The notes under the pieces are model-generated. The model had not been told where the DNA came from. It was given only the letters and a program-made list of their open reading frames with translations, and ran no database searches. From Corbicula japonica (lineage: Eukaryota > Mollusca > Bivalvia > Venerida > Cyrenidae): a DNA stretch of 64,000 nt. Positions 27,385 through 60,965 of this stretch are shown in pieces. Position 1 is the stretch's first letter; each line of letters starts with the position of its first letter. The position numbers were made by a program, and so were the translations under genes. The stretch spans positions 1 through 64,000 of the forward strand of contig JAZAYU010000196.1 of assembly GCA_038501625.1 (NCBI GenBank). The letters run 5' to 3'.

Positions 27385-28480
27385 TTCAGTCTCCATAAAA
27401 AATCTGGTTGTGAAATGGATTGGTGCAATAGTGATTTTAAACTGCACCTGTATTTTTTAATTAAATCTGGGTATCGGCGATAAATCTTGCAAAGGTTTTT
27501 CTTTATTGGGGATACCGATAGGCTTGTTTTAAAAGTTTTAAAAGTTTTTCGTTATGCAAAGATTACGTTCATTGAAATTCATTACAATCTCCAGTTTACT
27601 GATCCATTCATCTATCAGTCTATGCCAAATTAACTGATTTGAAAAAAATGAATTCAAGACTTTCATAACAGATTTGTTTTAACACCTGCTGATAAGGTTT
27701 CTAATAAATGTAATTAAAGAGTGACTAATACACTATATTAATATTCAAACTGAAGAACTGAACAGCACTAATGATTATATACTGATTTCTTCATCTGAGG
27801 GTGATATCATTACTGCACACACTCTACAAATTACAAAATTTAGAATCAGTTTTAAGCCGAAACAAGACAAAGTACCTACTATGTATTGGTTGCCTAAAAT
27901 GCATAAAACACCGTACAAAGCAAGATTTATTGCTAACTCTAGTTCTTGCACTACAACTAAGTATCCGTGCCCTTAAGCTCTTGTCTTACAGCTATAAAAG
28001 AACATGTAATTAGGTATTGTGATAAATCTTTTCTTAAAAAAACCTAGAAGCTCGATTTGTTTCATTTATCCCTGCCATCGTGTTCTTGCTGATTTTACTC
28101 CAGGAGCTCTGGTCTCGGTAAGATCACTGAGTATCGGCTTTGCAATGCTCTTTGTTTTTTATGTTTGTGTGCTTTTGCATGCAACATTGTTGAGCCGATA
28201 AGTGGGTTGGAGTTTTTTCACCAAGACAACTTGTACTTGTTTTGTGATATGAGAACCTGTTGGGGCAAGTGTGAGGTTGGTGCACCCTAGAACCTGGTTT
28301 AAACCCTCAGAGGCGGTAACCCCTCGGGTTCTCATTTTTGTTTATTGTTAGTGGTGTCTTTTTTGAAACTGATCATTTTATTAACCATGCTCTCTCCCTC
28401 TCTCTTCTTATTGACTGTGTGTGGAGGCTGTTTTTTCTGAATGTGGCGATTCCTGATATGCATATTTCACCTTTTTACTG
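27385..28480. mobile_element. Penelope-type fragments in opposite orientation
   Basis: 27,385-27,590 is minus (post-RT segment). 27,600-28,020 is plus and holds the N-terminal RT region (PTMYWLPKMHKTPYKARFIA near 27,870). It joins directly to the plus-strand tail (28,025-28,475), so the RT core is deleted. The end is TGATATGCATATTTCACC. Confidence 0.8.
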
Positions 28481-28649
28481 TAGAGACATGCATTAAATAT
28501 CCCTCATAAAGTTTAATTTTTTTTTCATTCTTTCAAAGAGCCATTGGTCTGAATAATTTCTTTACAGAGCTTGATCAGTCAAATATCAATCAAAACTATG
28601 TAGTTGTTATAACATAAACCTTTCTTACTACTGTTTTAATGTTTGAATA

Positions 28650-38500: not shown

Positions 38501-38815
38501 AATAAACATCTCCAAGATTTTTAAACTTTTTAATATCATTATTAACTGTTAAAAAATCATACTCAAATAATGTAGAATTACGGTTATGTAAACATTTGAA
38601 TCCTCAGGTGGTATATAGCACGTACAAAAATATGCATCATTTTCATTTTCTAAAAGCTCTTTCTTAATTTTAAACCAAATTGTACCATTTTGATTTTTGT
38701 CAACAAGTTTAAGGGAGCGTGAAAGCTTATTTTTAAAATAAAATATTCCACCACTATTCCGTTTTGCTTTACGATTAAATTTTGAACGGTAACAATCGTA
38801 ATATTCATATCCAAA
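35600..38815 (-). mobile_element. LINE ORF2, 3' portion: endonuclease end, reverse transcriptase, C-terminal zinc-binding region
   Basis: Minus-strand remnant of a non-LTR retrotransposon polyprotein. In order: endonuclease (RKAKRNSGG near 38,765, VYLTGDMNARTG near 38,490, STVDYLMTN near 38,270, TEFSDHCPVLF near 38,200); RT (GVTQGEPLSHLLLILFVNDI near 37,080, ADDLVILTRGQ near 36,960, INVNKTKVCVF near 36,860); and a C-terminal CKLCNQNTFESEYYFLLCC near 35,990. The 3' UTR runs to about 35,600. Frameshifts and a 47-bp tandem duplication break the frame. It continues at 50,399-51,225 beyond a large insertion. The clade is not determined. Confidence 0.9.
36629..36722. repeat. 47-bp tandem duplication inside LINE ORF2
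   Basis: GGTTATGATACGCCTTCAGT and the following 27 bases are repeated immediately with one difference (period 47). As 47 is not a multiple of three, it shifts the ORF2 frame, matching the frame change seen there. Confidence 0.92.
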
Positions 38816-38889
38816 TGAAATTGTTTATACGTTTCGAATAATACGAACTTGACGGTAATTGGCAGTGTGGAGGGAAAAGGTGCGTGTAT

Positions 38890-39020
38890 CTCGTGCGATT
38901 AGACTATTTAAGTGTTAGTTAGACTGGCGCGCATGCGCCAGTCTTAAGTAACGATGCCGTGAACTCGGCGACGCGCCGTTGTTAACTTCGGGTGTATCAT
39001 TGCGATAACGATAGCGTATC
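38890..39020 (+). promoter_or_regulatory. Promoter-like segment at the element's left end
   Basis: TCGTGCGATTAGACTATTTA holds a TATA-like CTATTTAAGT at 38,904, repeated at the left end of unit 2 (49,803). Just downstream lies the hairpin AGACTGGCGC-GCAT-GCGCCAGTCT (38,921-38,944). A donor-like CAA|GTAAGT occurs at 39,018. Promoter function is inference. Confidence 0.35.
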
Positions 39021-40150
39021 AAGTAAGTGGGGTTTTGTGGTCACCGCGAGAGCAGGCCGAAATGTTCTGCACAAGTGTGAAGCACAATGCCGCACACCAT
39101 TCCACGAATTCTGAGCAATATATAGTAAGCTTCCGTGTACTTTTGGAGCATCCATGCCAAAAACGCCAGCTAACAAATGTAGAGTGAAATACGACCAGCT
39201 ACGGCAGTGAACAAGCAACTGGATATGCATGAGTAGTTTAGTTACGCCTGAAAGATTTTGTTGTTGTGTGGCATAAAAAGTAGTGCATTTTCAGAAAATA
39301 CAAATATTTCGAGAAGGAATGTGAACTTTGAAAGATAATGCTGCAAATAAAAACAAGAAAACAATTTAATGTTGTTGTTCGAACAACTATGAAATGATAT
39401 TAAAAGAACGATTAAAAACAAATCAGTCACGTGACAAGCGGGAGATAGCGTGGGTTGTTATTTTGGTTAGGTTGGAGTAGTTGTGGATCGAGATTTTGCT
39501 CGGCTTTCAAGGACCGGGCCGGGCCCCAGTGTTCTCGCAGCTATCCCCACGCCGGACAACCGTTAACAAGCTTCAATCTATTTCCAACAAGCGTTAAATT
39601 TGCCGACATCGTTTATTCAAAACCGACATGTCATAATTTTCTGTTTCTTGCATTGTTAACACAGGTCGCTTTTCAATACACACCTCATTCAAGGTTAAGC
39701 AATGGGCGATTTGACCAATCACAATCGATTTCTTTACTATCAGCTGGTTAAATCCGCCTCTCCACTTGGCCGAATTCGCAAGTCTGTCGGTGTCGTTTGA
39801 TCGTATTTGGTTCTGCCGAGTGTTGATATTCTCAATTAACAGCGGGTGTGTTTGGCATATGTTCAAATGACAAATGTTCAATGATTTAAATGAGATGCGA
39901 TCATGAGTCATAATTTGGTTATTCTTTGTTCTGTGATTAGAAGACAAATACTTTGAAAATTGTACTGTATAGATGTATGAAAATAATTGCGCGATACTTG
40001 ATTGGTTTTAAACAAATCTATTAGCAAGTTGCAGTTAGAACTTAACGATCATTTTCGTCGGACATCAAGTATGCATGCGCAAAAGAACGACGATCTTATT
40101 TCAAGAGAAACCGGCCTTGTGAGGCTTATGCCAACTCCATCGGGCATTCT
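39020..40150. other. Unit 1 interior, no gene recognised
   Basis: Mostly unremarkable, with a GC-rich patch at 39,500-39,560 (GACCGGGCCGGGCCCCAG). Short open frames occur on both strands, none with a recognisable domain. Confidence 0.4.
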
Positions 40151-40170
40151 AAATTCAAAATTCTAGAAAT

Positions 40171-40425
40171 GAGATCGAGATCATTCTGGATAGCCCTTCA
40201 AGAGCGACTCTGACGACGCCAAGTACCCTTTCACGTCGTGAAATTACTCCGACGCCGGACGCGGTACCCCAACATGCCGAGACACTGAATCAACGCCGGC
40301 TACCTCGAACAGCCGGTTCGATCCAGTCAGGTGTCGATCCTAAGTGGAAGAAAGTCTACTCCTGGTTGCAAGAAGTTGGCAATTTTTATATACATTTACT
40401 TAGCCTTGTGACTTGCATTAAATAA
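40171..40425 (+). CDS. Unassigned Pro/Thr-rich exon-like frame
   Basis: 84 codons open to a TAA, preceded by the acceptor-like TTCTAG at 40,161-40,166. It reads ILDSPSRATLTTPSTLSRRE, then TPTPDAVPQHAETLNQRRL and VDPKWKKVYSWLQEVGNF. Base composition is clearly GC-richer than its surroundings. A second frame just upstream (MHAQKNDDLISRETGLVRLM) also looks protein-like. I do not recognise it. It could be a captured host exon in the large element or chance. Confidence 0.3.
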   Translation, partial: EIEIILDSPSRATLTTPSTLSRREITPTPDAVPQHAETLNQRRLPRTAGSIQSGVDPKWKKVYSWLQEVGNFYIHLLSLVTCIK

Positions 40426-40454
40426 ATAAAATAACTCAATTTCATGCTACTATA

Positions 40455-40665
40455 ATAAAAAGGGAAATATGCATATCAGGAATCGTCACACTCATAAAAC
40501 ACCCCCCCCCCCCACCCTGCAGCAAAAAAGAAGAGAGGGAAGTAAATGATTTGTTTGTTGATTGTTTAACAAAAAGAGAACCGTAAGGGTAAGCGTCTTG
40601 GAACAGTCAGTGGCAAAATAATTTGCTACTGGGGGTTTAAACCAGGTTCTAGGGGTGCACTATAT
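40455..40665 (-). mobile_element. Penelope-type 3' tail
   Basis: GAAATATGCATATCAGGAAT, a C-run replacing part of the GCCTCCCC motif, GAACAGTCAGTGGCAAAA and GGTTTAAACCAGGTTCTAGG in reverse orientation. Nested in the large element. From 40,665 to 40,860 nothing is recognisable. Confidence 0.85.
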
Positions 40666-40860
40666 AATTTATTATACCTGTTTGTGTTAACTGAATACCT
40701 ATTATGATACATGTATTATAGAAACTTTCTTGGCTCTAAATAAAGATAAACAAAACATCTATGTACTATATACCGTTGTTGCAGTAAACTTTGGTACAAA
40801 TATAAAACTGTATAAAATGATAGTTAAAAAATAAAGTTTCGCGAGCTAAAATCCACGAAC

Positions 40861-41312
40861 AGTCCAATGACAATCGAAGAGTACCTGTCCGTATTAATGA
40901 GGACTATAGCTATGACAATCATAGAGTACCAGTCCGTATTAATGAAGACTATAGCTATGACAATCAAAGAGTACCAGTCCGTATTAATGAAGACTATAGC
41001 TATGACAATCAAAGAGTACTAGTCCGTATCAATGAAGACTATAGCTATGACAATCGAAGAGTACCAGTCCGTATTGATGAAGACTCTAGCTATGACAATC
41101 AAAGAGTACCAGTCCGTATTAATGAAGACTATAGCTATGACAATCGAAGAGTACCAGTCCGTATTGATGAAGACTCTAGCTATGACAATCAAAGAGTACC
41201 AGTCCGTATTAATGAAGACTATAGCTATGACAATCAAAGAGTGCCTGTCTGTATTAATGAAGACTATAGCTATGGCAATCGAAGAGTACCAGTCCGTATT
41301 AATGAAGACTAA
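40861..41312 (+). repeat. 45-bp minisatellite, about 10 units
   Basis: The unit consists of ATGAAGACTATAGCTATGAC, then AATCAAAGAGTACCAGTCCG, then TATTA. Because 45 is a multiple of three, frames stay open on both strands as 15-residue repeats (plus: MKTIAMTIEEYQSVL; minus: MIVIAIVFINTDWYS). No other evidence of coding. Confidence 0.95.
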
Positions 41313-41835
41313 TACATGAGTACCAGGCCGTTATCATAACGATGAAACTTTGACATTGGCTGATTACTGGCTGTAATGAATATGTCTACAACTACCGAGA
41401 AACATAACGTACATGTTACAGGCCGACTATAGCTGTGACAACTGTTGAACACCAGGACGTAATAATAATGCCTAAAGCTGAGGCTTCCGCCGCATTATTA
41501 GCCGTTATTTTCGTAATTATATATAAGAATGACGACAGTACCAGGCCGTTATCGTTACGACTATAGATATGCCACCGTCCAGTTCCGTGCCGTCATCATG
41601 ACGTCTCTAGTTGTTACTCTAACAGAGTACCGTGCCTGATATCATGACGACTATATAGCTGCGTCAGACGCCGAGTACCAGGCTGTTATCGTGACGGCTA
41701 TAGATATGCGACTGCCCAGTTCCGTGCCGTTATCATGACGTCTCTAGTTGTGACTATCACAGAGTACCGTGCCTGATATCAAGACGACTATAGCTGCGTC
41801 AGACGCCGAGTACCAGACCGTTACATGGCGATTGT
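41313..41835 (+). repeat. Degenerate higher-order extension of the minisatellite
   Basis: The core GAGTACCAGGCCGTTATC recurs at about 41,537, 41,674 and 41,809, a period near 136, interleaved with GTTCCGTGCCGT and GACGACTATA. It shares AGTACCAG and GACTATAG with the 45-bp unit, so it looks like an older, diverged part of the same array. Confidence 0.75.
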
Positions 41836-44490
41836 TTATTTCTGTTAGAACTCATTTGATCTGTTTTTGTTCAGGGTAAGCTTTCTTCGGTCATTATGAG
41901 ACAAATATTATGAAAATATGTGCAACTTATTCGATGACTGAACACCACAGGCGAAAAAAACGAGGGCATGTTTTGCTGTTCATCCGTCGATCATCATGTT
42001 GTAATGTACGCAAAAGATTAGATTGAATGAAGTGGGTCTATTTACTGCATGAAATGTTAAGTTTAAATCCATATTAAACGCAACTTAAATGCATCTTTTT
42101 CGGAGATTAATCGCATTTCTTTATTTTCAATTCTTACTTTGTTTTAACGGTGAAGTCAAATCCTGGAGAGACCGTAAGTAAGTTAGCGAATATTTTTGTT
42201 AATGCATTGTTGCGATCGGCGTTAAAATTAAGATTTAACTGTTTCAGTCTCTTAAGGTACGTGAGCCTTGTGCATTTCATTGTTGACACTACTCAGTTGT
42301 GGCGGAGCCTGATCATCGTTATTCTAGCAAAATTTAACCACTAATCATATGCTCCTGCATCAAAAAGACCCCCAACCTAAGATTAAGGTGAAAAAAGGTG
42401 ATACCTTATTAATTTCCTTGCATCAAAATTCAAGTACCTGCATCTATTGAAATCCCTGAATATACTGAATTATTTGCTAATGTTGATGAAAGTAACTGTC
42501 ACAAAGTTTAACGAAAAAAATCACACAAAGTTTCATATGATTAAAGTAATGATATCTGTGCAGGGCAAGTTCGATTCAACCAGCGCGCCAGTCTTTCAAC
42601 GCTTTCAGCGCTTTGATTTTAATTATGTACATGTACACCATTCGAGGCGTTTCTATTCAGCGGTAAACATGTCGGCAAGGAGAAGAACATGTAGCAGTTT
42701 ACTCTTAGAGTTGCCAACTCTTTTTGAAACTTATTTCAGTGCACTGAAGGATTGAAGTTTGAGACAGGTTAGGCAGCAGAGAGCATCAAAAATAAAGCTT
42801 TTTCGACGCATTAAAGGATCACGTGGCAGTCAACAAGGACCTATGGCAACAGGGAGCTTTCTCCAATGGAAAGAAGTCATTTGTACAAGTGCGGATAAGT
42901 AGGGCACTTTGCCAGTGGTTTTGCCTCTGATTTATTAGGAACCAAATCGATGGAAGCAGAAACTAAGAGGTTTTTGTGATAAGTACTGTTTTATTTAATC
43001 GGCTTTTGTTAAATTCAAAAAAAAAAACAAACAGGTAACTTCTTCTGTTTGAAAATAATGTAACTGTTGTGGACCATTCTGTTAAAGGAAGATTAAAATG
43101 CTGCTTGGCTTTTTGTACAGAAATTATTTCAGCCGAAAAAGGAGTTCTTTGATTGGCTGTAAATGGAATTGGTGATTTGGCATGAGAAAAGCAAAACCAG
43201 TATTTCTAAAATAGCTAGGGTTTTTTTTATTTAATGAAGTGTTGTAATAGAGGCCTGAATGTAATCGTTAGTATGAGTTAACAAGTGAATGTACATTTTA
43301 AACAAGAACACTCATTGTAACATTTATTTTGAAACATGTAAACAGCAATGTTAATGAGCAGTATGCTTAGTCGATAATTGGTTAACAGTGAAAATATTAA
43401 TTTGTCGCATACAGTCATGCCGTTAAACAATCAGACGGGTTTCGTAAAAAACTAGTAATGACGGATAGGTGTGCCGTTATAAGTACAGATGCACATGGAA
43501 AGCGTGTACAATATATATTATACATTTAAAAAGGCTGTACCTTTCTGTTTAAGGATATAATTAATTTTGGTTATGTTTTATCCTTTGATTTTTGAAACAA
43601 ACGACTCTTACATTAAATACAATCAGTTGTAAGAAATGGTAAATTTGTAGAATATGTTATTTGATTTGTTTGTAATTTTGTGCCTACAAAGTGTTGTTTG
43701 AGCCCATAATGTAAACCATTTGTATATTACAGATCGTTTTTCCGGTAAGATCACGTAATGGTTGTTTTTTTTATGTATTTGTTACTCTTGCTTAGATGGT
43801 TTTTATTAATATTAATCAAGGACGTCTTCCATACTGATAGATAGAAGGAGGTTGCGTTTGCCACGCCAGATTTGAAAATCCTGATGCTGTTTTCTGAGGT
43901 CAAGGACGCTTTGTATTCTGGAAGGGAAGATTCTACAGTTTGTAATTTTACTGAAACGTTTACAAATTTTCAACAATGGTGAAAAGTAAACCATTTATGC
44001 AGTCTGTAGTTTTCGCCAGTAACGGTTGCTACATGTATGTATTTATCGAAGATTATTCAGAAAAAGGTTAGTACATAAAACTAAACCTGATATTTCATTG
44101 TGGAATCATATTACAGAAGACGTTGGAAAATCCTTGTAAAGATGATTGGTTGAAAATGTGTCTCTCGTATGCATTCGTACGATAGCTATGCCTGTTTGTA
44201 AGAAAGAACAACTTATTACTGAAATGGCTAAACCTTATATTTAACTTCGCTTTGGTAGGCATTTCCTTAGGAAATATCAGAGATGTGACTGAAACTATTT
44301 TACCATTTGATGGTTTCTTTAGAATAAGTGAAGTACTGGTTATCAAAAAGTCGGACATTAAGTTTTCTGAAACTTATTATGGAATTTTATATTTTATTTT
44401 TCTAATCGAAAACAGATGTTTAAGAGCAGGAAAAATGTTATTGCTGGAACAGGAAGTTATAATGACTGGTTAGACTTTTATAACGATATT
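41836..44490. other. Unit 1 interior, no confident gene
   Basis: Holds a third copy of a segment also present in unit 2 (TGTACACCATTCGAGGCGTT then TCAGCGGTAAACATGTCGG, at 42,632-42,677). A minus-strand frame at 44,095-44,358 reads RHSYRTNAYERHIFNQSSLQ, which faintly resembles a LINE C-terminus. Nothing else is recognisable. Confidence 0.4.
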
Positions 44491-44492
44491 TA

Positions 44493-44924
44493 AAATGATA
44501 GTGCCTCTAGCTGGGAGCGAACCCGCACCGTCACGGCGACAGCGCCTAGACCTGCAATTCCTGCGACGCAGCGAATTGAGCTAACCGGGACAACCCCCAT
44601 AAAAGGTTGATCGGATAGCCCTTTTATACGTTACAATCACTGCATGACGTCGGTAACGGGTTATTTTACTGATAACAGTACTGACCATATGTACGGGAGA
44701 CTTTTTACGGCCGCCACACTGCACAAATAGCGCTATTGTGAATTTCAAATGATAGTGCCTCTAGCTGGGAGCGAACCCGCACCGTCACGGCGACAGCGCC
44801 TAGCCCTGCAATTCCTGCGACGCAACCAATTGAGCTAACCGGGACAACCCCAAAACAATGTTGATCGGATAGCCCTGATATACGTTACAATCACTGCATG
44901 ACATCGGTAACGGGTTATTTTACT
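44493..44924 (+). repeat. Two tandem antisense-tRNA repeats (family S)
   Basis: Copies at 44,493-44,746 and 44,747-44,924. Each starts AAATGATAGTGCCTCTAGC. On the minus strand this part shows GGTTAGCTCAATT (box A-like) and GCGGGTTCGCTCCC (box B-like), spaced further apart than in a normal tRNA. The first copy ends in TGTACGGGAGACTTTTTACG plus CCACAC, a tail shared with family B at 63,361. Confidence 0.8.
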
Positions 44925-44979
44925 GTGTTCTAAAATATTGAAAAAAAAAATTCGGAATTCATTTTTAGATCACTATATT

Positions 44980-46914
44980 CTGCAGAATCTCGAAAATAAG
45001 CGTATACGCTTATATTTGAATTTGTGACGCTTTTATGCGCTTACATTTCGATATGCGCTTTTATTTAGGCCGCAGAATATGCGCTTATTTTTGATATGCG
45101 CTTATATTTAAGCCGCTGAATATTCGCTTATATTTGATATGCGCTTATAGCTTAGATTGACTGAATATACGCTTATTTTTGAAACAAAATAACACTAAAG
45201 GACCCGCATGCATGAAACATTATCAAAACAATTTTATCGTCTTTGAAGAGGAAAGACGTGTTTGAAAATGCATGTTTATTTACAAATTAACAAATTGAAA
45301 ACTACACTCGTCAAAAGTTCTAAGTGCACACTTTTCTTTTTTGAATATCTCAAAGTAAGCTTATTTTAATTGAATGAAAGTTTGATATAATGTTAATTAT
45401 GGTCAAACAATAATATTTTTTTGAAAACCGTGCATATGTTTTATGTATTACGTCATCCACGTCGGCATACGCTATTTATGCTTAATCCCCGTGAGGCAAT
45501 CGAAATTAATTTTTTTACAATCGTTTTTGTTTTCACATGTTCATCGACTCCAGACAAACACGAAAAACACACCAACAAATTGTAACCATTGAACGGTTGA
45601 CGTCAGCAGACAACGACATTCCCGTCAAAATTCGTTTCACTGGCACAACTTCAAATTTGATGTAAAAAATCTTGAAGGATTTCGTAAATGCAAAAGAAAT
45701 ATCTCATTTTTGGATATTTTATTAATATAAGAAGAAAATCAAACGATATTATGTTCTAGATTGATTACGCTGCTTACGTTGAATGCTGACGTTACTCAAT
45801 AGCGTCATTAAATATTTACGTAAAACAACGTAAACTCGAAAATATTAGTGTAACATGTGTTGGATAAGTGTCCAATAAATAAAAATTTAAAACTAAAATT
45901 TATAGAAATTCAATAAACTTTAAAATCGAATTATCCGAAAATGACGTTTATTTGGTCAAAAAGCGTGCCCGAAAACTGGTCAATTTTATCGAAATGAATA
46001 CATTTTTTCGTCCGGAAAGGCTGTTACACATCTATCATAGAAAATTGCATCATCCCAAACTGCTAGACAATTCAAAAGCTTTTTGCACAAAGAATTGTGA
46101 AAAAAATGGAATTTTCTCCTTGAAATCCTGTAAATACGTTATGGATAAAATAGAGAAGAGAGCGTTGGCTCATCGTTCCCAGCAGAACATTACAAAGCTA
46201 CAGGAAGCCATTTCAGTGCAATGGAATGGCAAACTACAGTATTTTCTTTAAATGTACATGAACTTTAAATGATACAGAGATGAGAAAACGATCACAAATG
46301 ATAGCCGATGCAATGATAATTAATTTGAGAATTGTTCCTTGAGTACAAGTGAGCTAAAATGTTATTATTTTTTAATTTGGTTAACCAGATTTAAATTTTT
46401 TGGTGTGCTTTAATAGAATATTGATTCTTCTTCATTGTAATTTACACTATTTTGAAAGAGTCAATCAAATAATTTGAAAAATCAACATATATCAAGTGTG
46501 CACTTAGAACTTTTGACTAGTGTATAATTTCATTGTACTCGAACAAAAGAATAAATGGTTTACTTTGAAAATAGCAATGCGAGTTGTTAACACCTTTCTG
46601 GCTAATACCGTTTATTGATCATTGTAAACGATACAGATACTATTATACTGTAATTATTTTTAATTGAAAGGCCGATTTAGCTCCCAGCTTGATGAAACTT
46701 GAACCACTGAGATAGTTAGGTATGCATATATGCGCTTATTTTGGGGATATATTTTAACTGTAAGGGACGGGTATGCGCTTAGTTTTGGGATAGATTTTAA
46801 CCTAAGGGACGGAAATGCGCTTATTTTTAGGTATTAGTTTTCTGTAAGAGACATATGCGCTTATATTCAGTATGCGCTTACTTCGATTATGCGCTTATTT
46901 TCGAGATTCTACAG
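44980..46914. mobile_element. DNA transposon with TATT target duplication and GCGCTTA subterminal repeats
   Basis: Ends are CTGCAGAATCTCGAAAATAA at 44,980 and its inverted match at 46,895-46,914 (CTGTAG variant, 22 of 23 identical including AGCG). TATT flanks both sides. The paralogous site near 48,065 has TATT once and no element. About ten copies of TATGCGCTTAT-like motifs lie just inside both ends. A Tc1/mariner copy is nested inside. Superfamily not assigned. Confidence 0.85.
45305..46522 (+). mobile_element. Tc1/mariner-type transposon, decayed
   Basis: 29-bp inverted ends starting CACTCGTCAAAAGTTCTAAG (left) with one mismatch to the right end (46,494-46,522), each flanked by TA. A plus-strand remnant at 45,952-46,251 reads MDKIEKRALAHRSQQNITKL and QEAISVQWNG, like the end of a Tc1 DDE transposase after its NPIENLW region. 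The catalytic core is not readable. Confidence 0.85.
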
Positions 46915-48055
46915 TATTTGGTAAATAATGCAATAAAGGTTTTCTTAGAGAATGTAATTAACAGCTGTTTTATTCAATCTTCAATGATTTGTCAAAGCAA
47001 AATCTGAGATTTTTAATTTAATAATAAGAATAACTTCGGATTACATTTTTGTTCGGTCTGGAGAAGCTACGGTGAGTGCAAATAATAAGACTACTGAAAG
47101 ACTCTCAGTGACATGGTAAATGCGAAAGACAGTTTGCAGGCAGACTTATAATATGGGTGAGTTTGGATTTGTAATGCTGAAATATTATGTTTTAAATTCT
47201 GCATTACTGAGAAAATGCTATCAATTTTAACGTCATCGACTTAGAAATGATTATCTTATTAAATAGAATATTATAGGAAATGATAGTGCCTCTAGCTGGG
47301 AGCGAACCCGCACCGTCACGGCGACAGCGCCTAGCCCTGCAATTCCTGCGACGCAACCAACTGAGCTAGCCGGGACAACCCCAAAAAAGGTTGATCGGAT
47401 AGCCCTGATATACGTAAGAAATCACTGCATGACATCGGTAACGGGTTATAATACTGATAACAGTACTGACTATATGTACGGGGAGACTTTTTACGGCCTC
47501 CACAAGTTATATAGTTGAAAAAGTAACGATTACTAAATGTAAATGTTTTTTAGAATTGCTTTATTTCAAGATATCACTGAGTGCTATTGTTGTGGGATAC
47601 AGTGCCAATGTATGTTGTATTTGTTTAACAAACGGCCCCCGGTTCCGTAGTTGTGTGGTCCCCAAGACCAAGTTTGTGTCGTATGTGTGATAACACGGCC
47701 CCGGTGCCAGCTGTGTTGTGTATGAGCTGTTAACGTTTATTTGCAGTATGATTTATGTAGCCGGTGCATTATTCCTAGTTTTGTTGTGTTAATTCAGCCA
47801 GTTATTGTTGTCGTCTTGTATATGTTTGAAAAAACTGTCCCTTGTGTCATTGTTGTGTGGTTTTATGTTGCAGTTGTGCCTGGAGTTTACATACAGATGG
47901 CCGTTCGTTTGTGATTTCTGTTGTGTTTGATATGTCCCATGAAATCGTTGTTGTGTGGTCCGTGGTTTCTGTGTTGTGTGTGTTTGATGCTCGGTCTCTG
48001 GTGCTGTTGTGTCAAATAAGTAGTTCATGTGGTTTATAAATATTCTGGTGCTTTA
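46915..48055 (+). repeat. Tandem duplication, unit A (about 1.15 kb)
   Basis: Collinear with 48,056-49,265. Shared landmarks are GTAAATAATGCAAT, GGAGAAGCTACGGTGAGTGC, TGCAGGCAGA, CAGTTNTTGTTGTCGTCTTG. This unit carries an extra family S insertion and a single proto-copy of the GGTGCC-rich motif. Confidence 0.87.
47278..47505 (+). repeat. Family S (antisense tRNA-like) insertion, 228 bp
   Basis: Matches the two copies at 44,493-44,924. Unit B lacks it: AATATTTTGGGAAGTTACAT near 48,414 corresponds to AATATTATAGGAA and GTTATAT flanking this copy. No long target duplication is visible. Confidence 0.85.
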
Positions 48056-49265
48056 AGATCACTTTATTTTTGTAAATAATGCAATGAAAGCTTTCTTAGA
48101 GAATGTAATAAAGAACTGTCTTATTCAATCTTAAATTATTTTTCAAAGCCAAAACTGACATTTTCAGTGTAATGATAAGAATAACTTTGAATTACTTTTT
48201 TCGGTCCGGAGAAGCTACGGTGAGTGCAAATAAGAAGACTATTGAGAGATTCTCAGTGACATTGTAAGAAAAGACACCTTGCAGGCAGATTTTAAGTCGC
48301 GTTGAGTTTGGATTTGAAATGTATTAAATATTATCGTTTGAATTATGCACCGCTGAGGAAATGTTATCCATTTTAACATCATTGGGTTAGAAATAATTAT
48401 CTTAATGAATAGAATATTTTGGGAAGTTACATAGTTGAAAAGTAACGATAAATAAATGTTAATGTTTTTCTAGAGTTGCTTTATTTCAAGATAACAATGA
48501 GTGCTATTGTTGTGTATTACAGTGCCTATATGTGTTGTATTCGACACACGGCTTCCGGTGCCGTTGTTGTGTGGCCCCCGGTGCCAAGTTTTTGTTGTAT
48601 GTGTTTGAGAACACGGCCTCCGGTGCCGTTGTTGTGTGGCCCCTGGTGCCAAGTTTGTTATGTGTTTGAGAACACGGCCCTCGGTGCCGTTGTTGTGTGG
48701 CCCCCGGTGCCAAGTTTATGTTGTATGTGTTTGAGAACACGGCTCCCGGTGCTGTTGTTGTGTGGCCGCGGTGCCAAGTTTATGTTATATGTGTTTGAGA
48801 ACACGGCCCCCGGTGCCGTTGTTGTGTGGACCCCGGTGCCAAGTTTATGTTGTATGTGTTTGAGAACACGGCCCCCGGTGCCATGTTTATGTTTAATTGG
48901 TTTGAGAACACGGCCCCGGTGCCGGCGTTGTGGCCCCCGGTGCCAACTGTGTTGTGTACGAACTGTTGCTGTTTGTTTTCAGTGTCATTTATGTAGCCTG
49001 TGCATTTTTCTTGTTTGTTGAGTTAATGTTTAGCCAGTTCTTGTTGTCGTCTTGTATATGTATAATTTATTGTGTCTGGTGTTTACGCACACAGATGCCG
49101 TTAGTTTGTAATTACAGGTGTTAATTGTGTAATATGTGTTTGATATGTTCCTTGAACTCATAGTTAAGTAGTCCTTGGTTTCTGTGTTGTATGTGTGTTT
49201 GATGCACGGTCAGTGGTGCAGTTGTGTGTAAAATACGTAGTGTCTGTGATTTATGAATATTCAGT
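48056..49265 (+). repeat. Tandem duplication, unit B
   Basis: Second unit, without the family S insertion, but with the GGTGCC-rich motif expanded into a minisatellite. The 181-codon plus-strand frame at 48,476-49,021 is a by-product of that array. Confidence 0.87.
48530..48935 (+). repeat. 65-bp minisatellite, about 6-7 units
   Basis: The unit runs GAGAACACGGCCCCCGGTGC, CGTTGTTGTGTGGCCCCCGG, TGCCAAGTTTATGTTGTATG, TGTTT. Units vary by a few bases and small deletions. Confidence 0.93.
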
Positions 49266-49676
49266 TGCTTTGTAGATTGATGACTCGATCCCGAGACCTA
49301 CTTTGGTTAGATCTGGTGTTAACAATACAAGTGCTTAATATTGTTTTTGACAGTGGCCGAGATGTCCGTGATGGTTCCAGAAATAATTTGGTGAAGTTTT
49401 AAATGGGTACATTTGTTTTCGTTTTTGTCGAAATTATGAAGTACACTCTTTTCACAGGTTAAGACGACACATGCATACGTTACAAGATTTGTGACAATTT
49501 GTTAAAATTTTAGTTTTATAAAATGTAAATGCTTTTCAACTGCAGTGCTCATCAGTTGTCTCTCTGTTTGATTCGATATTACCGCTGAATACAAAGACCT
49601 AATCCTAGTTTTTGTTTGTGTTTTACGTATTATGAGATAAGGAAAAAATTAATTTACTCAGGTTAAAGTGAGTAAA
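49266..49676. other. 3' end of unit 1 with terminal stem-loop
   Basis: No gene. 49,563-49,676 is the right-end segment shared with 50,284-50,398. It finishes in the stem-loop TTTACTCA...TGAGTAAA (49,653-49,676), directly abutting the next unit. Confidence 0.8.
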
Positions 49677-50374
49677 TGAAATTAATTACGTTTCGAATAA
49701 TACGAACTTTACGGTAATTATTCGTGTGGAGCAGGGCCTATTAATTGTTGATTAAATAGACCCTGTGTGGAGGGAAAAGGTGCGTGTATATCGTGCGATT
49801 AGCCTATTTAAGTATTGGTTTTATCTGTGTACACCATTCGAGGCGTTTCTTTTCAGCGGTAAGCATGTCGGCACCCGCCCACCCGCCCTATATGTTGTAA
49901 ATATATTGTTTTAGGATGGTTGTCAATGCTTAAAAGAACTTCCAGGTAATAAATAGAAATATGATGTAAATAAAATGTTTATTTTTGTTTCAGGTGTTTC
50001 GAGTTTGGTGTATTCTCTTAGTCATAAACAATATATTTATTTATCATGTAAGAAATATGGATATTTTAAGGCCATTCACTAGTTTCAGGTTCGAGTGGTA
50101 CTATTAGATGAAGCTTTATCCAGATGTGTTAAAAGTTCTCGAGATTGTCTGCTAAACAGCTAAATAGCCAGAGCTACTGATGTCGCTTTTCATTGGGACG
50201 GTTCGCATATTACAGGCCCACTGATTTCTACCTCTATTTGGACAGTTTTTCAGCAACATGCACTTGGACTATACAGACATTTGAAAAATTTAATGTATAT
50301 TACCGCTGAATACAACGACCTAATCCTACTTTTTGTTTGTGTTTTTACGTATTATGAGATAAGGAAATAATTAA

Positions 50375-50398
50375 TTTACTCACGTTATAGTGAGTAAA
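50375..50398. other. Terminal stem-loop of unit 2
   Basis: TTTACTCAC-GTTATA-GTGAGTAAA, a perfect 9-bp stem. The next base returns to LINE endonuclease sequence. Confidence 0.88.
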
Positions 50399-51260: not shown

Positions 51261-52690
51261 CTAAGACAAATATTGTTCCAGACGTCTACCGAGCAAATCA
51301 GACAACATTTGAAAATTTCCAGACAAGATCATCCTTTCTGGAACAACAAGATCCGCCAGTTCCGATGTTAATGCTAAAATACGTTGATCAGATATATGAA
51401 AGTCCTCTAACGAACCGGTCTTTCCACATAATTGATCGATAACAAAGTGTTTGATTAATAAACAGCCCATGAGTAACAGTAGCAGTTTTTCTATCTCATC
51501 TCTTTTTTTCCCATAGAAGAATATACTGCTTGGAGCTAAGATCAACGATAATTGGGAATGCTTTTTAAAAATGTTAAGTCTGCAGAAAATGTTCCTTCCT
51601 TCTTTAATCAAATCGTCTAATCTGTTGATTAGTTTCTGTTTATTTCGTAATGTGGGTCTGAAGGCGATCAAATTTCTCTCTGGAATTACATAGTTTGGTA
51701 AATGGTTCTTAATTGCACATGTTCTCATAAACGATAAGCATTTTACTATCTGGTCAAGGAGCAAGTCCGGACTCGAAGTTAGTGAACACACCCGTGGATT
51801 TGAATCGCGTACCTCCGAATTTAGTTCACATATCCAGAGAACAACATTTTTTACAACATAAGAGGATATAACAGGGAAGTCTTGGTAAATTAATTCTTTC
51901 GCTATCATTTTCATTATGATATACAACTTAAATTGTGTAGAGTTTAGATTACGAATTATCTTGTTTTCTGTCATCACATAGGATATTCGCCATTCCAGAT
52001 CTGGATTTTCTCCCTTACTAGATCCCATTGGTACAATATAGCCTTCAGTTGAACATATGTTGTCAATAAGACTGCGAGAAAACCAGTCACGGCGGCTTAA
52101 TCGTGTTGCCAACTTAGATGTATATAGTGAACTATAAAAGCAAATGCTGAACACTGTGTTCCCATCCGTTACAAAACACGAGGGTCCTATGACCTGGTCA
52201 GCTTTGCTTAAAATTTGCAATGATAACAGTTTTTTCTTCGAAATGTTTTTAAAGATTGCACATGACACATATGATATGCCATCTTGTGTAAAGTGGAACT
52301 TTGAACTGGATATAATCTGCCCCAAGATTGCAAGATCTTTGGTATCAACAGCCGCAACTCTTGTATATCCAGGTGGGACACTGTCATTGCGTTCTGCCTT
52401 TAAGATATGAAAGTCTGATGATATGAAATTGTTTTCTACACATGAGACATCTTGCGTTACAAACATAAGATCTGTACCGCCGCAGAGCGGCAAAGATGCG
52501 CCTTCAGCGCGGCTACCAACTGCTATAAGAGTTATGCCGGAAAAGCGAAAGTGTCTTGATTCTAAATTCACTATGGCATCATTAGCGCACTCTCGGTATT
52601 TTCGCATATCATCACTATATCCAAGGTTGTCCAGAAGAAAGCAAACGACGGATGAAAACGTTCTGTTCCATTCCTTACCTTCTTGGTATG
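51261..52690 (-). CDS. Mab-21 / cGAS-like nucleotidyltransferase exon (last exon)
   Basis: 476 codons including stop, open throughout, behind the acceptor TTTTCTAAGTTTCAG (exon base 52,690, phase 1). The fold starts with KEWNRTFSSVVCFLLDNLGY and FSGITLIAVGSRAEGASLPL. GSRAEG is the nucleotide-binding Gly-Ser motif. The metal-binding strand reads CGGTDLMF, where relatives usually have two acids (D-x-D or E-x-D); only one Asp remains, so catalysis is doubtful. The C-terminal half (LNSTQFKLYIIMKMIAKELI, SYVVKNVVLWICEL) matches Mab-21 helices. Family members sense nucleic acid and make cyclic dinucleotides, or have lost that activity. A LINE lies just downstream. Confidence 0.88.
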
Positions 52691-53715
52691 CTGAAACTTA
52701 GAAAATTATAAAAATATACTTGCGAAGACGGAGTCGATGATTGTAAGATTCCCCAACCCCTTCACAAACGAAACGTTTCTGAATGATTATATTAAACAAT
52801 GCTGAATTATAGAATATGTAATTGGAATATTTAAATAAATAAAAATGGAGTTTCGAAAGCCGAGCCGAGCCGAACACAAAAATATGAAAATATGCAGGCT
52901 AGGTTTGACTGAGCCTGTTCTAGGGCAATAATAGAAATGCATATCCGCGTGACAACAAAGAGAGACAAAAACAAACCGGCTCTTATTTCATAATTGTCGT
53001 GTATGGAGGCTTTCCAAATTCATTTCTAATCTATTTCTTGGTTGTATCACGTGTCTTCAACCGTTGTTTTTTTAATTATCGAACGAGCCTATAATTTAGC
53101 CTATTGGAAGTGCTTCTGTTTACAAATTTGGATCTCATCACCATTTCAGAAAGAGGAGACAGCTTTGGAAATAAGAACGTCTTTTTGACAAGTTTTATGT
53201 AAAATAAACACAACATTCATAAAATAAGAGTTTTGATGAAAAAATCAGACGTTTTTATCTTTAACATACACTATAAGATTTAGGTTATGAAAATAAAAGG
53301 AAACTAACTTTAGCTGTCATTATATAATTTTTGTTTTAACTTTTCTTACAAGCATGTTTACCCGTTAATTAAGTATCTCTTAGAATGAGTGCAACTATTT
53401 TGATAGGTTTTAGGTGATCCAATTTATGGGTAAAGCAATACGATTTTTGACCCTGTTTACTTTATAAGAAACTAGTGCCATCTTGATCTTAGTTTTTATG
53501 CCATATGTGACGTTTTTTTTGTAATTGATCGTATTGTATAATTTATTTCATTCTCTAATTCTTAAAAGTAAATTTGTGCGGTTCAGTAACATGCGTCTGG
53601 CTTTCCAGGATATGCGTTTTAATATGTTTAAAAATATGAAATAAAACCCATACAAGCATTACATCATTTGTGCTTTATAAATAACTTTTCAGAAAAAGAA
53701 ATGTAATCACTATAC

Positions 53716-54669: not shown

Positions 54670-56585
54670 AACTATTAAACTATCTGTGCTATTAACATCT
54701 TGTCTTACAGCTAAAAATCCATGTAATTATGTATTGCTAAAAGGTTTTTGAAAACACTGGCACAACTCTATTGTGGTCATTTAAAACTCATAAGACGTTT
54801 AAAAGATGATTTATTTTAAAACAAGGTTATCGGTATCACAAATTAAGGAAAACCTTTTGCAAGTTTTATCGCCGATACCCAGATTTAATTCATAAATACA
54901 AATGCAGTTTAAAATCACTTTTGCAACAAGGTATTTCACAGCCAGTTTTTTATGGAGATTTAATTTATAAACTTAAACAGATAAAAAGCAGTGTTAATTT
55001 CTCCCGGTTATTCGTAAAAACTATCTGTAAATTTAAAAAGAAAGGTTGGCAACATGATATTTTACAGCGCTCTGCAGGCCCGGTGATTAACCCTTCTACA
55101 GTTGATCATTATGCTTACCTCTTTGGTTGCACGTCGGTGGCAGGGGTTTAAGAGTTTATAAAGGTTAATGGGGAAATCTTTTCTTAAAAGAACATAGAAG
55201 CTCGATTTGTTTCTTTTATCCCTGTCATCGTGTTCTTGCTGATTTTACTCCAGGAGCTCTGGTCTCGGTAAGATCATTGAGTAACCGCCCCTTCGGCTTT
55301 GCAATGCTCTTAGCTTCTTATGTTTTATATGTTTGTGTGCTTTTGCATGCAACATTGTTAAGCCGATAAGTGGGTTGGAGTCTTTTCACAAAGACAACTT
55401 GTACTTGTTTTGTGATATGAGAACCTGCTGGGGAAAGTGTGAGGTTGGTGCACCCTAGAACCTGGTTTAAACCCCCAGTGGCAATTTGATTTGACCGAAG
55501 GCTTACCTCCTTGGAACGGTCAGTGGCAAAAAAATTTGCCACTGGAGCTTTAAACCAGGTTCTAGGGTGCACCGACCTCACACTTGCCCCAACAGGATCT
55601 CATATCACAAACCAAGCACAACTTGTCTTAGTGAAATAACTCCAACCCACCCATCAGTTCAACAATAGTGCATGCAAAGCACACAAACATATAAAACATA
55701 AAAAGCTTATAGCATTGAAAAGCCGAAGGTGTGGGTACTCAATGACCTTACCAAGACCAGAGCATCTGGAGTCAAATCAGCAAGAACACAATGACAGGGA
55801 TAAAAGAAACAAATCGAGCTTCAAGGTTATTTTAAAAAAAGATTTCCCTTTAAACATTCATAAACTCTTAAACCCCTGCCACCGTCGTGCAACCAAAGAG
55901 ATAAGCATAATAATCAACTGTAGATGGGTCACCGGGCCTTCAGAGCGCTGCAGAATATCATGATGGTAACCTTTCTCTTTCAATTTACAGATGGTCTTTA
56001 CGAATAACAAAAAATTGGCATTGCCTTTTATCTTTTTAAGTTTATAATATAAATCTCCATAAAAAACTGGCTGTGAAATACATTATTGCAAAGTTAATGT
56101 GATTGTAAACTGCGCCTGTTTTTTTTTTAAATCATAAACATCATTGTACGCTCTAGAAAAGCGAACATGCTGTGAGTTATAAACCGCGTAAGATGTTGAA
56201 TGAGTAAGGTCATTGTGTATCCGCCGTCTTGCTTAACAATTCCATTAGTTTTTTTTTTATATTTTATACGTGTGTGGTTTTGCATGCAACTTTGTCGACT
56301 TGATGGGTGGCTTATTTCACGAAGACATGTTCATATGAGAACCTGATGGTGGCAAGTGTGAGGTTCATGCACTCTAAAATTTGATTTAAATCCCCAGTAA
56401 CAAAATATTTCGGCGCTTATCGTTCCAAATGGTAACCTCTCGGGTTCTCAAAATACGTAATTGTTAGAAACTGATCATTTTATTAACCTATGCACTCTTT
56501 TCCTCTCTGCTTTTTGGCTGTTTAGGGGAGGCCGTGTGCTCTGGATGTGGCCATTTTTGATAGGCATTTTCATTTTTTATTTCCA
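54670..56585. mobile_element. Composite of three Penelope-type copies in alternating orientation
   Basis: Plus copy 54,670-55,490: a scrap of the fingers region, then KTFCKFYRRYPDLIHKYKCS-type post-RT sequence and a tail cut at GGCAATTTGATT. Minus copy 55,497-56,200, meeting it head-on so that the GGTTTAAACC region forms a large inverted repeat. Plus tail 56,205-56,585, ending near GATAGGCATTTTCATTTTT. All lie in the intron of the Mab-21 gene. Confidence 0.8.
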
Positions 56586-56836
56586 AATAAGGACACCCGG
56601 TATTCTTAAAAACCGAATGGAAGTTTTATTTTTAGCAGAAATATACTGATCCAATAATGATGCTTTCTTAATTACGTTAGTGGTATTTTTTAGTTGTAAT
56701 GCAGTTGGATACCTGTTGGAATTAATAGTCAGGAGAAACTAATGACAGTACTTACAGAGGAGGTTACCAAAGTATCTTGAAGTATTATTAAAACATCAGA
56801 TTTTGTTTTTAGAAAAAAAAATTCACAATAGCTTAC

Positions 56837-57247
56837 TTAAGGCAGACAAAACCCTGTTGAACTCGTCTACGTATATAACTGTTTCCAATCGTAACTTCTC
56901 ACAGCCGTTTAATGATCGCGCTGCCTCCTCCAGCTTCTTCAGCAATATGTCTAGTGTTCCATCGACGTAATCTCTTAGTAGAGTGAGCAAAGAAAGTATT
57001 GATGAACATTGGATATGCAAAACAATACATCCGACTTCGGTCTTTTTTATAGTACAACCTCTTTCCTTAAATTCGCTACACAAATCATTGACCGCATGTC
57101 TTAATTCTTTCACATCTTCTGTACATGCAGGCAGCTCGGTATCATTATAAATACATGTATCCTCGTTGAATAACTCCGCCATCATTCTAGAGGTTGATGT
57201 TTCTACTTGATGAGAACAGTTACACGTTCTTACTTCCATGGCCATTT
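56837..57247 (-). CDS. TRADD-N-like first coding exon of the Mab-21 gene
   Basis: Acceptor CACTATTTTCAG, start ATGGCCATGGAAG at 57,245, donor TTAA|GTAAGC after 56,837. From this ATG the three exons total 2,052 bases, exactly 684 codons with stop, and their phases agree. The exon has ELRHAVNDLCSEFKERGC, then EVGCIVLHIQCSSILSLLTL and LRDYVDGTLDILLKKLEEA. The pattern G-x-I-V-x-x-I-x-C ... D-Y-x-x-G-x-L resembles the TRADD N-terminal-like domain of invertebrate immune proteins, so a signalling-adaptor role is possible. Domain call moderate, exon call good. A 5' non-coding exon is likely, given the acceptor two bases before the ATG. Confidence 0.68.
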
Positions 57248-57479
57248 CTGAAAATAGTGTATTTAAAAGTATATAATTCAAAATGATGTTCATTTTTTAT
57301 GAAGATGATCTTTAAATATTTGTCAGTCGAAGATGGTGTTAACTTTTAAAACATTAAAATATGAGGCGTTAAACTGCGATGACAAATCTTAATTATTCAT
57401 TCACTTCCCATTTCTCTTGTTCATTGATAATGCAATGAAGTTGATTACCTGGTGGAGGATTTTCAACCTGTGCGTGACC

Positions 57480-58080
57480 CCCGATGCGTCTTAAAATCTC
57501 TATTTGATATCTCATCATTTTATCCAACATACTTGTCACAGTTTGCATGCCTGAAAACAGAACGATGTATTGCAGATAATCTTCTTAGTCATTCAATTCA
57601 TCTATCTGATTTTAAATTAAAAGTAATCTGTCTTTCTAAAGAGAAAGAAAGACTTTCAAGAATGACATGTTTTGTACTTTGTAATATTTTAATTTTCCCG
57701 TTTATAGACGATGCTTGTAACGATGTTAAAATTTTAATGAACGTCTTTTTGCATAACAGAAACACTTTTTAAACAGGGTTACAGGTCCCATAAACTAGGC
57801 AAAATCTTTTGCAAGTTTTATCGCAGTACCTAGATTTCATTCGAACTACATGAAATGTTAAATCACTCATGCAACTAGGTCTTTCTTATCCGCAAGTAAC
57901 AGAGCTTTAAATCATAAACTAAAGTAAATATTAATTTTCCACGTTATTCATAGAAAATGCCAAAATAAAATGTTACTTGTATAATATTCTGAAGCGTACT
58001 GCATGCTTTATGATTGACCCATATACAACTGATCGTAATGTTCACTTCTTTGTAGGCACGATGGTGGCAAGGTTTACAGA
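57480..58080 (+). mobile_element. Old Penelope-type RT fragment
   Basis: Plus-strand LSRMTCFVL, DDACNDVKILMNVF and AGTTTTATCGCAGTACC-type DNA match the region from FLDGDVP to the post-RT domain, strongly diverged. The 57,250-57,480 stretch before it has a donor-like CCACCAG|GTAATC on the minus strand, but I cannot confirm an exon. Confidence 0.65.
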
Positions 58081-58084
58081 CTTT

Positions 58085-58836
58085 TTAAAAAAAAAGGTGA
58101 AATATGCATATCAGGAATCGCCACATTCAGAAAAAACAGCCTCCCCACACAGTCAAGAAGAAGAGAGGGGGAGAGAGCATGGTTAATAAAATAATCAGTT
58201 TCAAAAAAGACACCACTAACAATAAACAAAAATGAGAACCCGAGGGGTTACCGCCTTGGAACGGTCAGTGGCAAATCAAATTTAAGGTTTTTAATGGGAT
58301 CATGTGAAATAACCTAGAAGCACGATCTATTTCTTTAACCCCTGAAATCTTGCTTTTTTTACTCCAAGGATAATGGTCTCACTAAGGACATTGATTATCT
58401 ATCCTTTTGCTTGTCCATTCAATAGGTGGGTTAGAGCTTATAGAACTTGTACATGTTTGTTCATAACAAAAGAATCTATTGGCAAATTGTTTTGCCGCTG
58501 ACGTTCCAAGTCGGTTGCCCTTCAGGTTCTCATTTTCGTTTACTGATTGTGGTGTCTTTTTGAAAATCATGCCCATATGCATTTTCTGCTTGTGAAAAGC
58601 CCAACTATACTCGCGTTGTAGTCAGCAACCCTTTAATTTGATTTGCCACTGACCGTTCCAAGGCGGTAACCCCTCGGGTTCTCATTTTTGTTAATTGTTA
58701 GTGGTGTCTCTTTTGAAACTGGTCATTTGATTAACCATGCTTTCTCCCTCTCTTCTTCTTGACTGTGTGGGAAGACTGTTTTTTTTTCTAAATGTGGCGA
58801 TTCCTGATATGCATATTTCACCTTTCTTTAACTCGA
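58085..58836. mobile_element. Penelope-type tails as an inverted pair with outward 3' ends
   Basis: Minus tail 58,090-58,281 and plus tail 58,640-58,836 are near-identical inverted copies of about 190 bases (CCGCCTTGGAACGGTCAGTG, CAGCCTCCCCACACAGTCAA, GAAATATGCATATCAGGAAT). Between them lies an older plus-strand tail (58,285-58,580). Confidence 0.85.
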
Positions 58837-59099
58837 AAGTACACAACAGCGGAGGCGATACTCGTTAAGATTGCACAACTATCATTAATCACTATTGTTT
58901 GAAATACACAAAGTGTGACGTCAGTTTAAAGCCCAGTTTAATTTGTTTATTATTTCCGGCGCTATTATTTAACTTCATGCCTATTGATTTATTAAATGAA
59001 CGTATTTTTATCTTGATTTTATTTTCATGTTGCTTAAGAGAGAAAGCCATTATTATAAAGAACGCTTTGAAAGACTTGTTAAATTCTATTCATGGTTAC

Positions 59100-59190
59100 C
59101 GCTTTTAAGGTATTTGTCAATGAGAATTTCAACCCGATTCTTGAGTTCTATGATGTCATCGTGCCCGCCTAATTCTCACAGTTGCAAACA
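59100..59190 (-). CDS. Possible further 5' exon of the Mab-21 gene
   Basis: Minus strand reads ELGGHDDIIELKNRVEILID plus KYLKS, ending at a donor-like GCG|GTAACC in phase 1, which would fit the exon starting at 57,247. The acceptor side is unclear and a stop lies just upstream. Weak. Confidence 0.22.
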
Positions 59191-59379
59191 TGTACAAAGT
59201 GCTTCAGAAAACTAATATTATCCAACCGCGTTGAGGGCTTACCACACTCCCCCCCCCCCCAATAACGTTCATCGATAAAAAGAAATTTATCACAATCTCA
59301 ATAATGGCAAAATACCGTTCAATGAAACTTTGAACAGATAAATGTTACTAATGAATCTTTATTTTGCATACAGTAAGAC

Positions 59380-59930
59380 ACGTTAGAAAAGTATAGAAAA
59401 CAGCTAGATCTAAACATTCCTTAAAATTCTATTTACATAAATTCACAAAAAAACTAAGCGATACAAAACATAATTTTAGATTCCCACGTAAGTGCAATGA
59501 TACTGGCAAGAAAATGTTGTGTACGTTGTAAAAAACTTTCAACTTCTAAAAGAGAAATCAGTGATTGTCATCCGTTTACGCGACCAGGAAGCGACGAGGC
59601 AATTGAAGGTCAAACACACTTTTACAAATATCTCACGAGGACACAATAAATTGTTGTCAGTATCATATTACTAATGTGTGTATTTAAAATGATGTTTTGT
59701 GTTGTTTAGTTTTTGTGAATTTCTGTAATTAGAAATTGATGGAATTTTTAGATCTCGCTATTTTTCTTTACTGTTCTAACGTGTCTTACCATCTGCATAA
59801 TAAAGATACATTAATAACATATATTTGTGCAAAAATTCATTTAACAGCATTCAGCCGTTATTGAGATTTTGATAATTTTCTTTTTATCGATGAACGTGCT
59901 TGGGAGGAGTGTGGTAAGCCCTTAATGTTT
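59380..59930 (+). repeat. Family E copy
   Basis: Paralogue of 34,520-35,140 with a single copy of the CATCTGCATAATAAAGATAC unit, so it shows the unexpanded state. A C-run lies just before it (59,250-59,261). Confidence 0.75.
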
Positions 59931-60965
59931 TAGAGAAAATCAAACAAAAACATTAAAGTAGCTAAAAACTGCTATAAAGCGTTTAACCAACTGACACACA
60001 AATATATTTTAATCAGCAAGAATTCGATGGCAGGTGGTTTATAGGGAAAGTTTGGCCTTTAACGGGGTTTTCTCTAGATTTCCAATAAGGAAACGAAATT
60101 ATATACTTAAACAAAACCATTAGTAACATCATTATGGAAGCAAAACTTAAGAAAACATTCTGCGCATGTGATTTCCGAATAAATAATAGATGAGCAATAA
60201 ACTTCATGTACAAAGCATCTTGTTCGTACTAGTGTATCTTTAACAAAATTAAAAAACATCCCCAAAATTCTGGTCATCAATTGTGTAAATGTATGTTTAC
60301 AAAGTATGATAGTTTCTTTTCCTCCCCTATGTCAAGAGAGGTTGTAAAAAGAACTGTTTTGTCTATGATTCAATTATTGAATGCTTTTTAATCTTTATTG
60401 AGTGTTTTCTTAAATAAATCTAATAACATTACTTACACCGCAAGGTCAAACTTGAAAAAGTCTTTCATTGATTTATATCAATGGGTACTTTGCGGGGGGG
60501 GGGGGGGGGGCGAACAAACAAAAATGCTGCTGATTATTTATGTTCTGTTTTTCCTTCTAATGAGGCTAATATTAATACCAACCAAGAGATTTAGGCAAAT
60601 TTTCTGGTAGCTTGACTTTTACTTGTTTAACATGCATTTTTCGCAAAATTTAGGATTAGTCTCGCCAAACTAAAGTTAAATTAAAATCTGTTGTTCGCAA
60701 CTGATCACAATTAAATTGTTCAGTCTTTGCCTTTCTAGTATATAAATTACGGACAAAAATGACCAAGAACGTTGGGTGACTGTAAAATAAGAAACTCGAA
60801 TTGAATAAAACGTTGCTTGGTGACAGAAAAAAAAGTAAAAAATATTTCATACTTCAAAATCACTGCGTATGCCTGTACCATAAACAGGAGAACACTATTT
60901 GTGCAGTGTGGTGGTCGCAAAAATCGTCAAAAGGGTTACCGATATCATTTAGTGATCGTGACGTT
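59931..60965. other. No gene recognised; poly-G run
   Basis: AT-rich. A run of 17 G occurs at 60,494-60,510. Reading frames here have no recognisable domain. Confidence 0.5.

Follow-up and report, generated by a model that had tools for sequence, protein, structure and literature searches.

The window analysed here, a stretch of 64,000 nucleotides from Corbicula japonica, carries on its minus strand a LINE whose endonuclease is interrupted by other DNA. When the flanks 38815 and 50399 are joined, one open frame is obtained (...WHSKSTNLNI/FGYEYYDC...), which matches the Pfam family Exo_endo_phos (E 3.4e-6) and is gapless at the join against all four relatives found (P0004-P0007, 51-64% identity in the alignment). 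The insert thus has a net length of 11,583 bp. This agrees with the first-pass annotation, which had described a LINE split by an insert of about 11.6 kb whose removal restores the endonuclease frame. The same annotation held that no base was lost; there is no gap against the four relatives, but where the window has F at the join they have D, D, K and D, and 1-3 host bases may thus have been changed or lost. The base preceding TGAAATT is A in all 34 other loci with a visible 5' start, and we therefore redrew the element one base earlier at both ends, to 38815..50397 on the plus strand, in accordance with the flank join and the termini of other copies. A 478-residue minus-strand frame at 51261-52697 adjoins the LINE and has a Mab-21-like C-terminal match just under the Pfam cut-off (8e-5). 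Elsewhere in the window there are a predicted tRNA-Val (cac) at 20295-20368 (minus) and dense dispersed repeats in both orientations at 13100-28500 and 54800-63600.

The insert consists of two units, 38815-49675 and 49676-50397, meeting at an exact junction where GTGAGTAA is directly followed by ATGAAATT. Common to both are a 5' stretch of about 150-200 bp and a 3' stretch of about 102 bp. The 5' matches between unit 1 and unit 2 are 38816-38872/49677-49731 (84%), 38865-38920/49765-49820 (93%) and 42632-42677/49828-49873 (96%), and the 3' match is 49576-49676/50297-50398 (94%). We call the 5' modules A1 and A2 and the 3' modules B1 and B2, all on the plus strand. A1 is found in two parts, 38815..38920 and 42632..42677, the second with an ATG at 42669-42671 where the gag of a gene-bearing relative starts. 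B1 (49576..49675) is followed by A2 (49676..49873), with the internal junction B1.A2 at 49675/49676, then by a spacer (49874..50296) and by B2 (50297..50397), the 3' end of the element as indicated by the match to B1, the hairpin and the other copies. A1 and A2 have 144 identical, 11 mismatched and 46 gap positions, and B1 and B2 have 96, 5 and 1, respectively. Sequence comparison of the unit 2 interior with unit 1 gave chance-level matches only; the A2-B2 spacer has no significant match in unit 1 and is 87-90% alike in other copies. Two copies of one element joined end-to-start had been proposed: the junction is exact, but the units are alike in their ends only and the interiors differ. The stem-loop proposed for each unit was recovered as a terminal hairpin at the 3' end of both, in B1 and B2, and the asymmetric subterminal inverted repeats also held up. 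In unit 2, three collinear inverted blocks connect the 5' and 3' modules with a chain of 29, which one of 2000 shuffles equalled; the chain in unit 1 by itself is weaker (21, reached in 43 of 2000), and the majority ends of the family have a chain of 31, which appeared in 0 of 1000 shuffles for each of A and B.

Unit 1 contains several insertions and decayed genes. The two parts of A1 are separated by a 3.7-kb nested insertion (38921..42594) with 12-bp inverted ends AGACTGGCGCGC, recognised by unit comparison as missing from A2; the dispersed repeats mentioned above also reach 40440-40660 within it. When proteins of a gene-bearing relative were used as tblastn queries, its gag and the pre-core part of its RT frame matched unit 1 at 42783-43149: a gag remnant at 42783..42961 (plus) corresponds to residues 161-220 (E 5e-10) and is partly overlapped by residues 56-200 of the RT frame at 42796..43149 (plus, E 2e-13). 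A decayed tyrosine recombinase (YR) follows on the plus strand, its N-terminal two thirds at 43782..44446 (tblastn E 3e-43, 4e-37). Within the YR gene there are two SINE-like copies on the minus strand (44493..44925), identified by repeats and by tRNA-like boxes seen by eye, where ARAGORN predicted no tRNA, and a nested element with 35-nt inverted ends (44972..46922), for which a paralogous empty site exists near 48060. Between them lies a YR piece at 44895..44993 (plus, tblastn E 0.012 and 0.002), whose match extends into both neighbours, and the C-terminal YR piece is at 46908..47137 (plus). A second YR C-terminal copy at 48056..48249 (plus) lies in a tandem duplication measuring about 1.1 kb (46917-48054 / 48068-49271); a third SINE-like copy (47278..47504, minus) is missing from the duplicated copy. 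A minisatellite of GGCCCCCGGTGCC occupies 48546..48923, and relatives have frames of a similar repeat.

The YR was recognised when unit 1 was read through with splicing done by eye (43838-44490): the product matches the 340-residue YR P0001 with E 2e-46; an earlier search with a single unspliced frame of unit 1 gave no match. In tblastn, P0001 found collinear pieces across 43824-47137 and its C-terminal part again in the duplicated copy, with a best E of 4e-37, versus 0.32 in a reversed-window decoy. Residues R171, H288, R291 and Y323 are invariant in three of three sequences and are presumably the catalytic R-H-R-Y of a tyrosine recombinase, and Cre was matched by the YR profile (E 0.0016). 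Pfam scans covered most of unit 1 apart from 44494-44925 (ORFs, and six frames of 42678-44493, 38921-42594 and 44926-49676) and detected neither YR nor RT, with matches below cut-off only (CD45 0.0034, Cad 0.026 and weaker ones). With the spliced YR read-through as query, Pfam and PHROGs gave no match and the PDB no useful one. Among viral contigs, 90 stretches fitted a YR pattern and none was confirmed, and no element end motifs were found there; 119 stretches from prokaryote genomes yielded one distant bacterial YR. Rfam gave no match. Residues 201-608 of the relative's RT were not found in the window copy by tblastn, and only 633 bp lie between the match to RT residue 200 and the YR, which is too short for an RT core. 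The class assignment of the window copy therefore depends on its relatives.

Using the B2 end as a genome query, we obtained 591 first-look candidates, of which 40 were scored including the window, and the other 39 loci were fetched. All 40 scored matches, selected by that very end, end at the same point, and the 39 others stop 3-16 bases beyond; GTGAGTAA is present in 39 of 39. Other copies with the same termini, which the first-pass annotation had proposed to look for, do exist. Twenty-five loci were called solo A-spacer-B copies (three of these calls, L029, L034 and L035, without a 5' end in view), 10 had a B.A junction, two were A-type (L016 alone, L022 fused to a B interior) and two were unclassified; as the query was the B2 end, the sample favours B2 and A-type copies are under-sampled. 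Seven of the 10 junction loci were seen whole, with A before B, and three at the junction only. If unit 1 had inserted independently beside an older unit 2, at this locus only, the different interiors and the existence of units alone elsewhere would be understood. The recurrence of the junction in 10 of 39 loci, with A before B in all seven seen whole, and also in four of eight YR loci, two of them distant, makes such a double insertion highly improbable.

Nine A units were compared, among which eight are 97.9-99.1% alike and the ninth, L010, is 95.4-96.2% identical to the others. All nine carry a YR remnant and none has a frame of more than 168 residues from a start codon. The majority sequence of the eight young A units lacks an RT core, with 589 bp between RT residue 202 and the YR. 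In the young two-part copies, ungapped counts of A1/A2 identity, which are lowered by indels such as the breaks in A1 of L010 and L012, are 150/150 in L013, L014, L021 and L027, 149 in L017, 86 in L010 and 68 in L012; B1/B2 counts made in the same way are 101-102/102 in six copies and 69 in L017. Solo and two-part B units are identical at every compared position in two pairs (L048/L021 and L046/L027). The B unit of the window matches the majority sequence at 92.6%. With 16 mismatches in 256 compared A1/A2 and B1/B2 positions (47 gap positions excluded), the window copy clearly predates the young ones. Two further pairs of loci were observed. L023 and L024 are one solo-B locus present twice on contig C137 in opposite orientation, with right flanks 99% alike. 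L044 (C72:161295) and L045 (C47, A unit about 5031370-5035792) have homologous flanks, 84-94% in the matched stretches, in which the same nucleotide is occupied in L044 by a solo B unit, 95.3% like the majority, and in L045 by a two-part copy (B 99.7%); this shared site could stem from a second hit at one position, from gene conversion or from an exchange in place.

P0001 as a query against the same assembly gave 1225 first-look candidates, of which 119 were scored and eight YR loci examined. This YR family has many and varied members, with identities of 33-99% among the 119 scored of 1225 candidates and many stop-free frames. At three loci there are stop-free frames of 360 residues that are 98-99% like P0001. 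A hairpin 3' end lies downstream of the YR in six of the eight loci and a B.A junction in four of those six, two of which have just 53-54% YR identity; in the stretches examined of L057 and L058 there was neither. One copy, C1173:64062-70197, is complete and is the only one in which all genes and both repeats were read together: A1, gag (249 aa), RT/RNase H (one open frame of 810 aa), YR (360 aa), B1.A2, spacer and B2, followed by host DNA. Its A1 and A2 are identical at 167 of 170 positions and its B1 and B2 at 102 of 103. Another copy, L056 (C1:14661477-14666900), has A...B only. It carries frames for gag, RT, RNase H and YR, and its RT frame is broken at residue 608, between RT and RNase H. 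The Pfam domain scan was done on this sister copy (L062 and L056, RT frame in two pieces), and found a zinc knuckle (2.5e-4), Phage_integrase (4e-10), RVT_1 (8e-7; 29.3 bits, cut-off 29.6) and RNase H (5e-4, under cut-off). Pfam hit no methyltransferase in the frames of these four genes, nor in a six-frame scan of the 1.4 kb that follow the YR in L055, which gave below-cut-off hits to other families only.

In the light of the complete relative we read the two units as parts of one element with split direct repeats, and the dimer reading is given up. Judged by this layout, unit 1 is A1...B1 and unit 2 is A2...B2 of the same element. A Crypton-like DNA transposon, moved by its YR alone, would account for the YR in unit 1, for the lack of a consistent target duplication described below and for the young majority sequence, where no RT core was found. 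Relatives with these ends, however, encode gag, RT and RNase H, so the YR is not the sole gene, and animal Cryptons are reported to have no terminal repeats (PMC3212892). We consider this origin very unlikely, and the candidate was dropped on the gag-RT of the relatives.

The relatives also explain the size of unit 1. Elsewhere, A-type units of the young family measure 4,717-5,012 bp; the one in L022, which is fused to a B interior, has 5,389 bp, and those of two gene-bearing copies have 5,424 bp each. At nearly 11 kb against 4.7-5.4 kb, unit 1 is indeed unusually large, as had been remarked, but the swelling is due to nested insertions (the 3.7-kb one, the 44972-46922 element and three SINE-like copies) and to the tandem duplication.

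After removal of repeats, and with the window counted in, target sites were analysed in 31 left flanks and 38 right ones. On the left, L-3 is T in 27 of 31 and L-2 is A in 25 of 31, and L-1 is never G; on the right, R+3 is A in 29, R+7 is T in 29 and R+8 is T in 33 of 38. The consensus is AT-rich, TAW/AWATATTTW, and is similar to the joint of the element itself, TAA/ATGAAATTA. The host base L-1 varies and the 3' end of the element is constant, which gives a one-sided pattern. As the first-pass annotation had noted for this locus, no target duplication of consistent length was seen in these flanks; the left-flank end and the right-flank start agree over 0-4 bases. The pattern of these flanks is not that of insertion between T and T.

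The first-pass annotation had assigned the insert to the Helentron/HINE class. On such a rolling-circle reading, the head-to-tail units would arise by replication past the first terminator and the YR would be captured cargo. The ends come close to those of Helitron2: a 10-bp ATIR lies 4 nt from the 5' end and is used by a 5' hairpin, its partner lies 25 nt from the 3' end directly before the terminal hairpin, and there is no consistent target duplication. The Helitron2 description gives an ATIR 0-2 nt from the 5' end, together with ATIRs and terminal hairpins (PMC3627910), and our element departs from it in the 5' ATIR at 4 nt and in the first base, A rather than T. Against this class, the complete copy has split direct repeats and gag, RT/RNase H and YR, the target is TAW/AW and not T/T, and related 3' ends sit downstream of YRs at only 53-54% identity. 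A Rep/helicase in longer copies had been suggested as a check; Pfam found none in the L062/L056 frames or in the 1.4 kb past the YR, none was found in the complete copy, and gag, RT/RNase H and YR are there instead. A rolling-circle origin has only a slight chance, a little above that of a Crypton. The Helentron dimer was discarded on the gene-bearing relatives, and capture of a YR by a rolling-circle element, which the Helitron2-like ends and the one-sided target would suggest, is contradicted by the YR loci.

We conclude, with a probability of about 0.93, that the inserted DNA represents one Ngaro-type tyrosine-recombinase retrotransposon, an old copy that is non-autonomous. Several observations count against the Ngaro reading: solo units outnumber two-part ones (25 versus 10 of 39 loci, though the B2-end query biases the sample), the window copy has no RT core of its own, a full set of genes and repeats was read in one copy while L056 is A...B only with a broken RT frame, and the one-sided L-1 pattern is not predicted by two-strand exchange with a mismatched overlap alone. 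In YR retrotransposons RNA is copied to cDNA, which forms a circle with a joint that is integrated by the YR. Applied here, this class model implies that the RNA would be copied to cDNA and that the inner B1.A2, which in the split-repeat layout has the sequence that joined circle ends would have, would supply the end sequences for a circle with a B.A joint; the YR, acting in trans for the window copy, would then recombine this joint into the target. The RT core is missing from the window copy as it is from the young family; unless it was lost after insertion, the copy was probably mobilised in trans. Solo A-spacer-B copies would most simply be deletions between A1 and A2, as in solo LTRs.

With this assignment the element joins a known kind, the Ngaro-type YR retrotransposons, and what looked like a giant Helentron dimer is removed. 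It means that a split-repeat YR retrotransposon can bear ends near the published structural description of Helitron2; since the solo copies nearly fit that description, naming by ends alone may mislead. One genome offers gene-bearing, RT-less and solo forms together with 31-38 mapped target flanks, and such a family suits the study of YR target choice and mobilisation in trans. We speculate, as a conjecture with the odds against it, that some hairpin-ended, TSD-less mollusc "Helentrons/HINEs" named by their ends are solo A-spacer-B remnants of YR retrotransposons, and that a two-part element without RT and with a dead YR has long been multiplying in trans in this lineage.

Ngaro elements are described as having split direct repeats, A1 at the 5' side and B1 A2 B2 at the 3' side (PMC9210276, PMC4157794). 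Our element is like them in its A1...B1.A2...B2 repeats in the complete relative, the young two-part copies and the window, in internal repeats downstream of the YR, in RT and RNase H in the relatives (Pfam scores just under the cut-offs; the window copy is without the RT core) and in a tyrosine recombinase with R-H-R-Y and no methyltransferase found. It may differ from known Ngaro elements in the Helitron2-like terminal hairpin with asymmetric inverted repeats, in the many solo A-spacer-B copies and in the young RT-less family. PAT/Kangaroo of the DIRS group likewise have split direct repeats and a YR, but carry a methyltransferase domain (PMC4157794) that was not found here. With Helitron2/Helentron (HINE) it shares a similar end anatomy and the lack of a consistent target duplication, whereas no Rep/helicase was found in the gene-bearing relatives, the target is another one and the genes are those of a retrotransposon. 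Cryptons resemble it in the tyrosine recombinase and, again, in having no consistent target duplication, but here there are also gag, RT, RNase H and structured ends.
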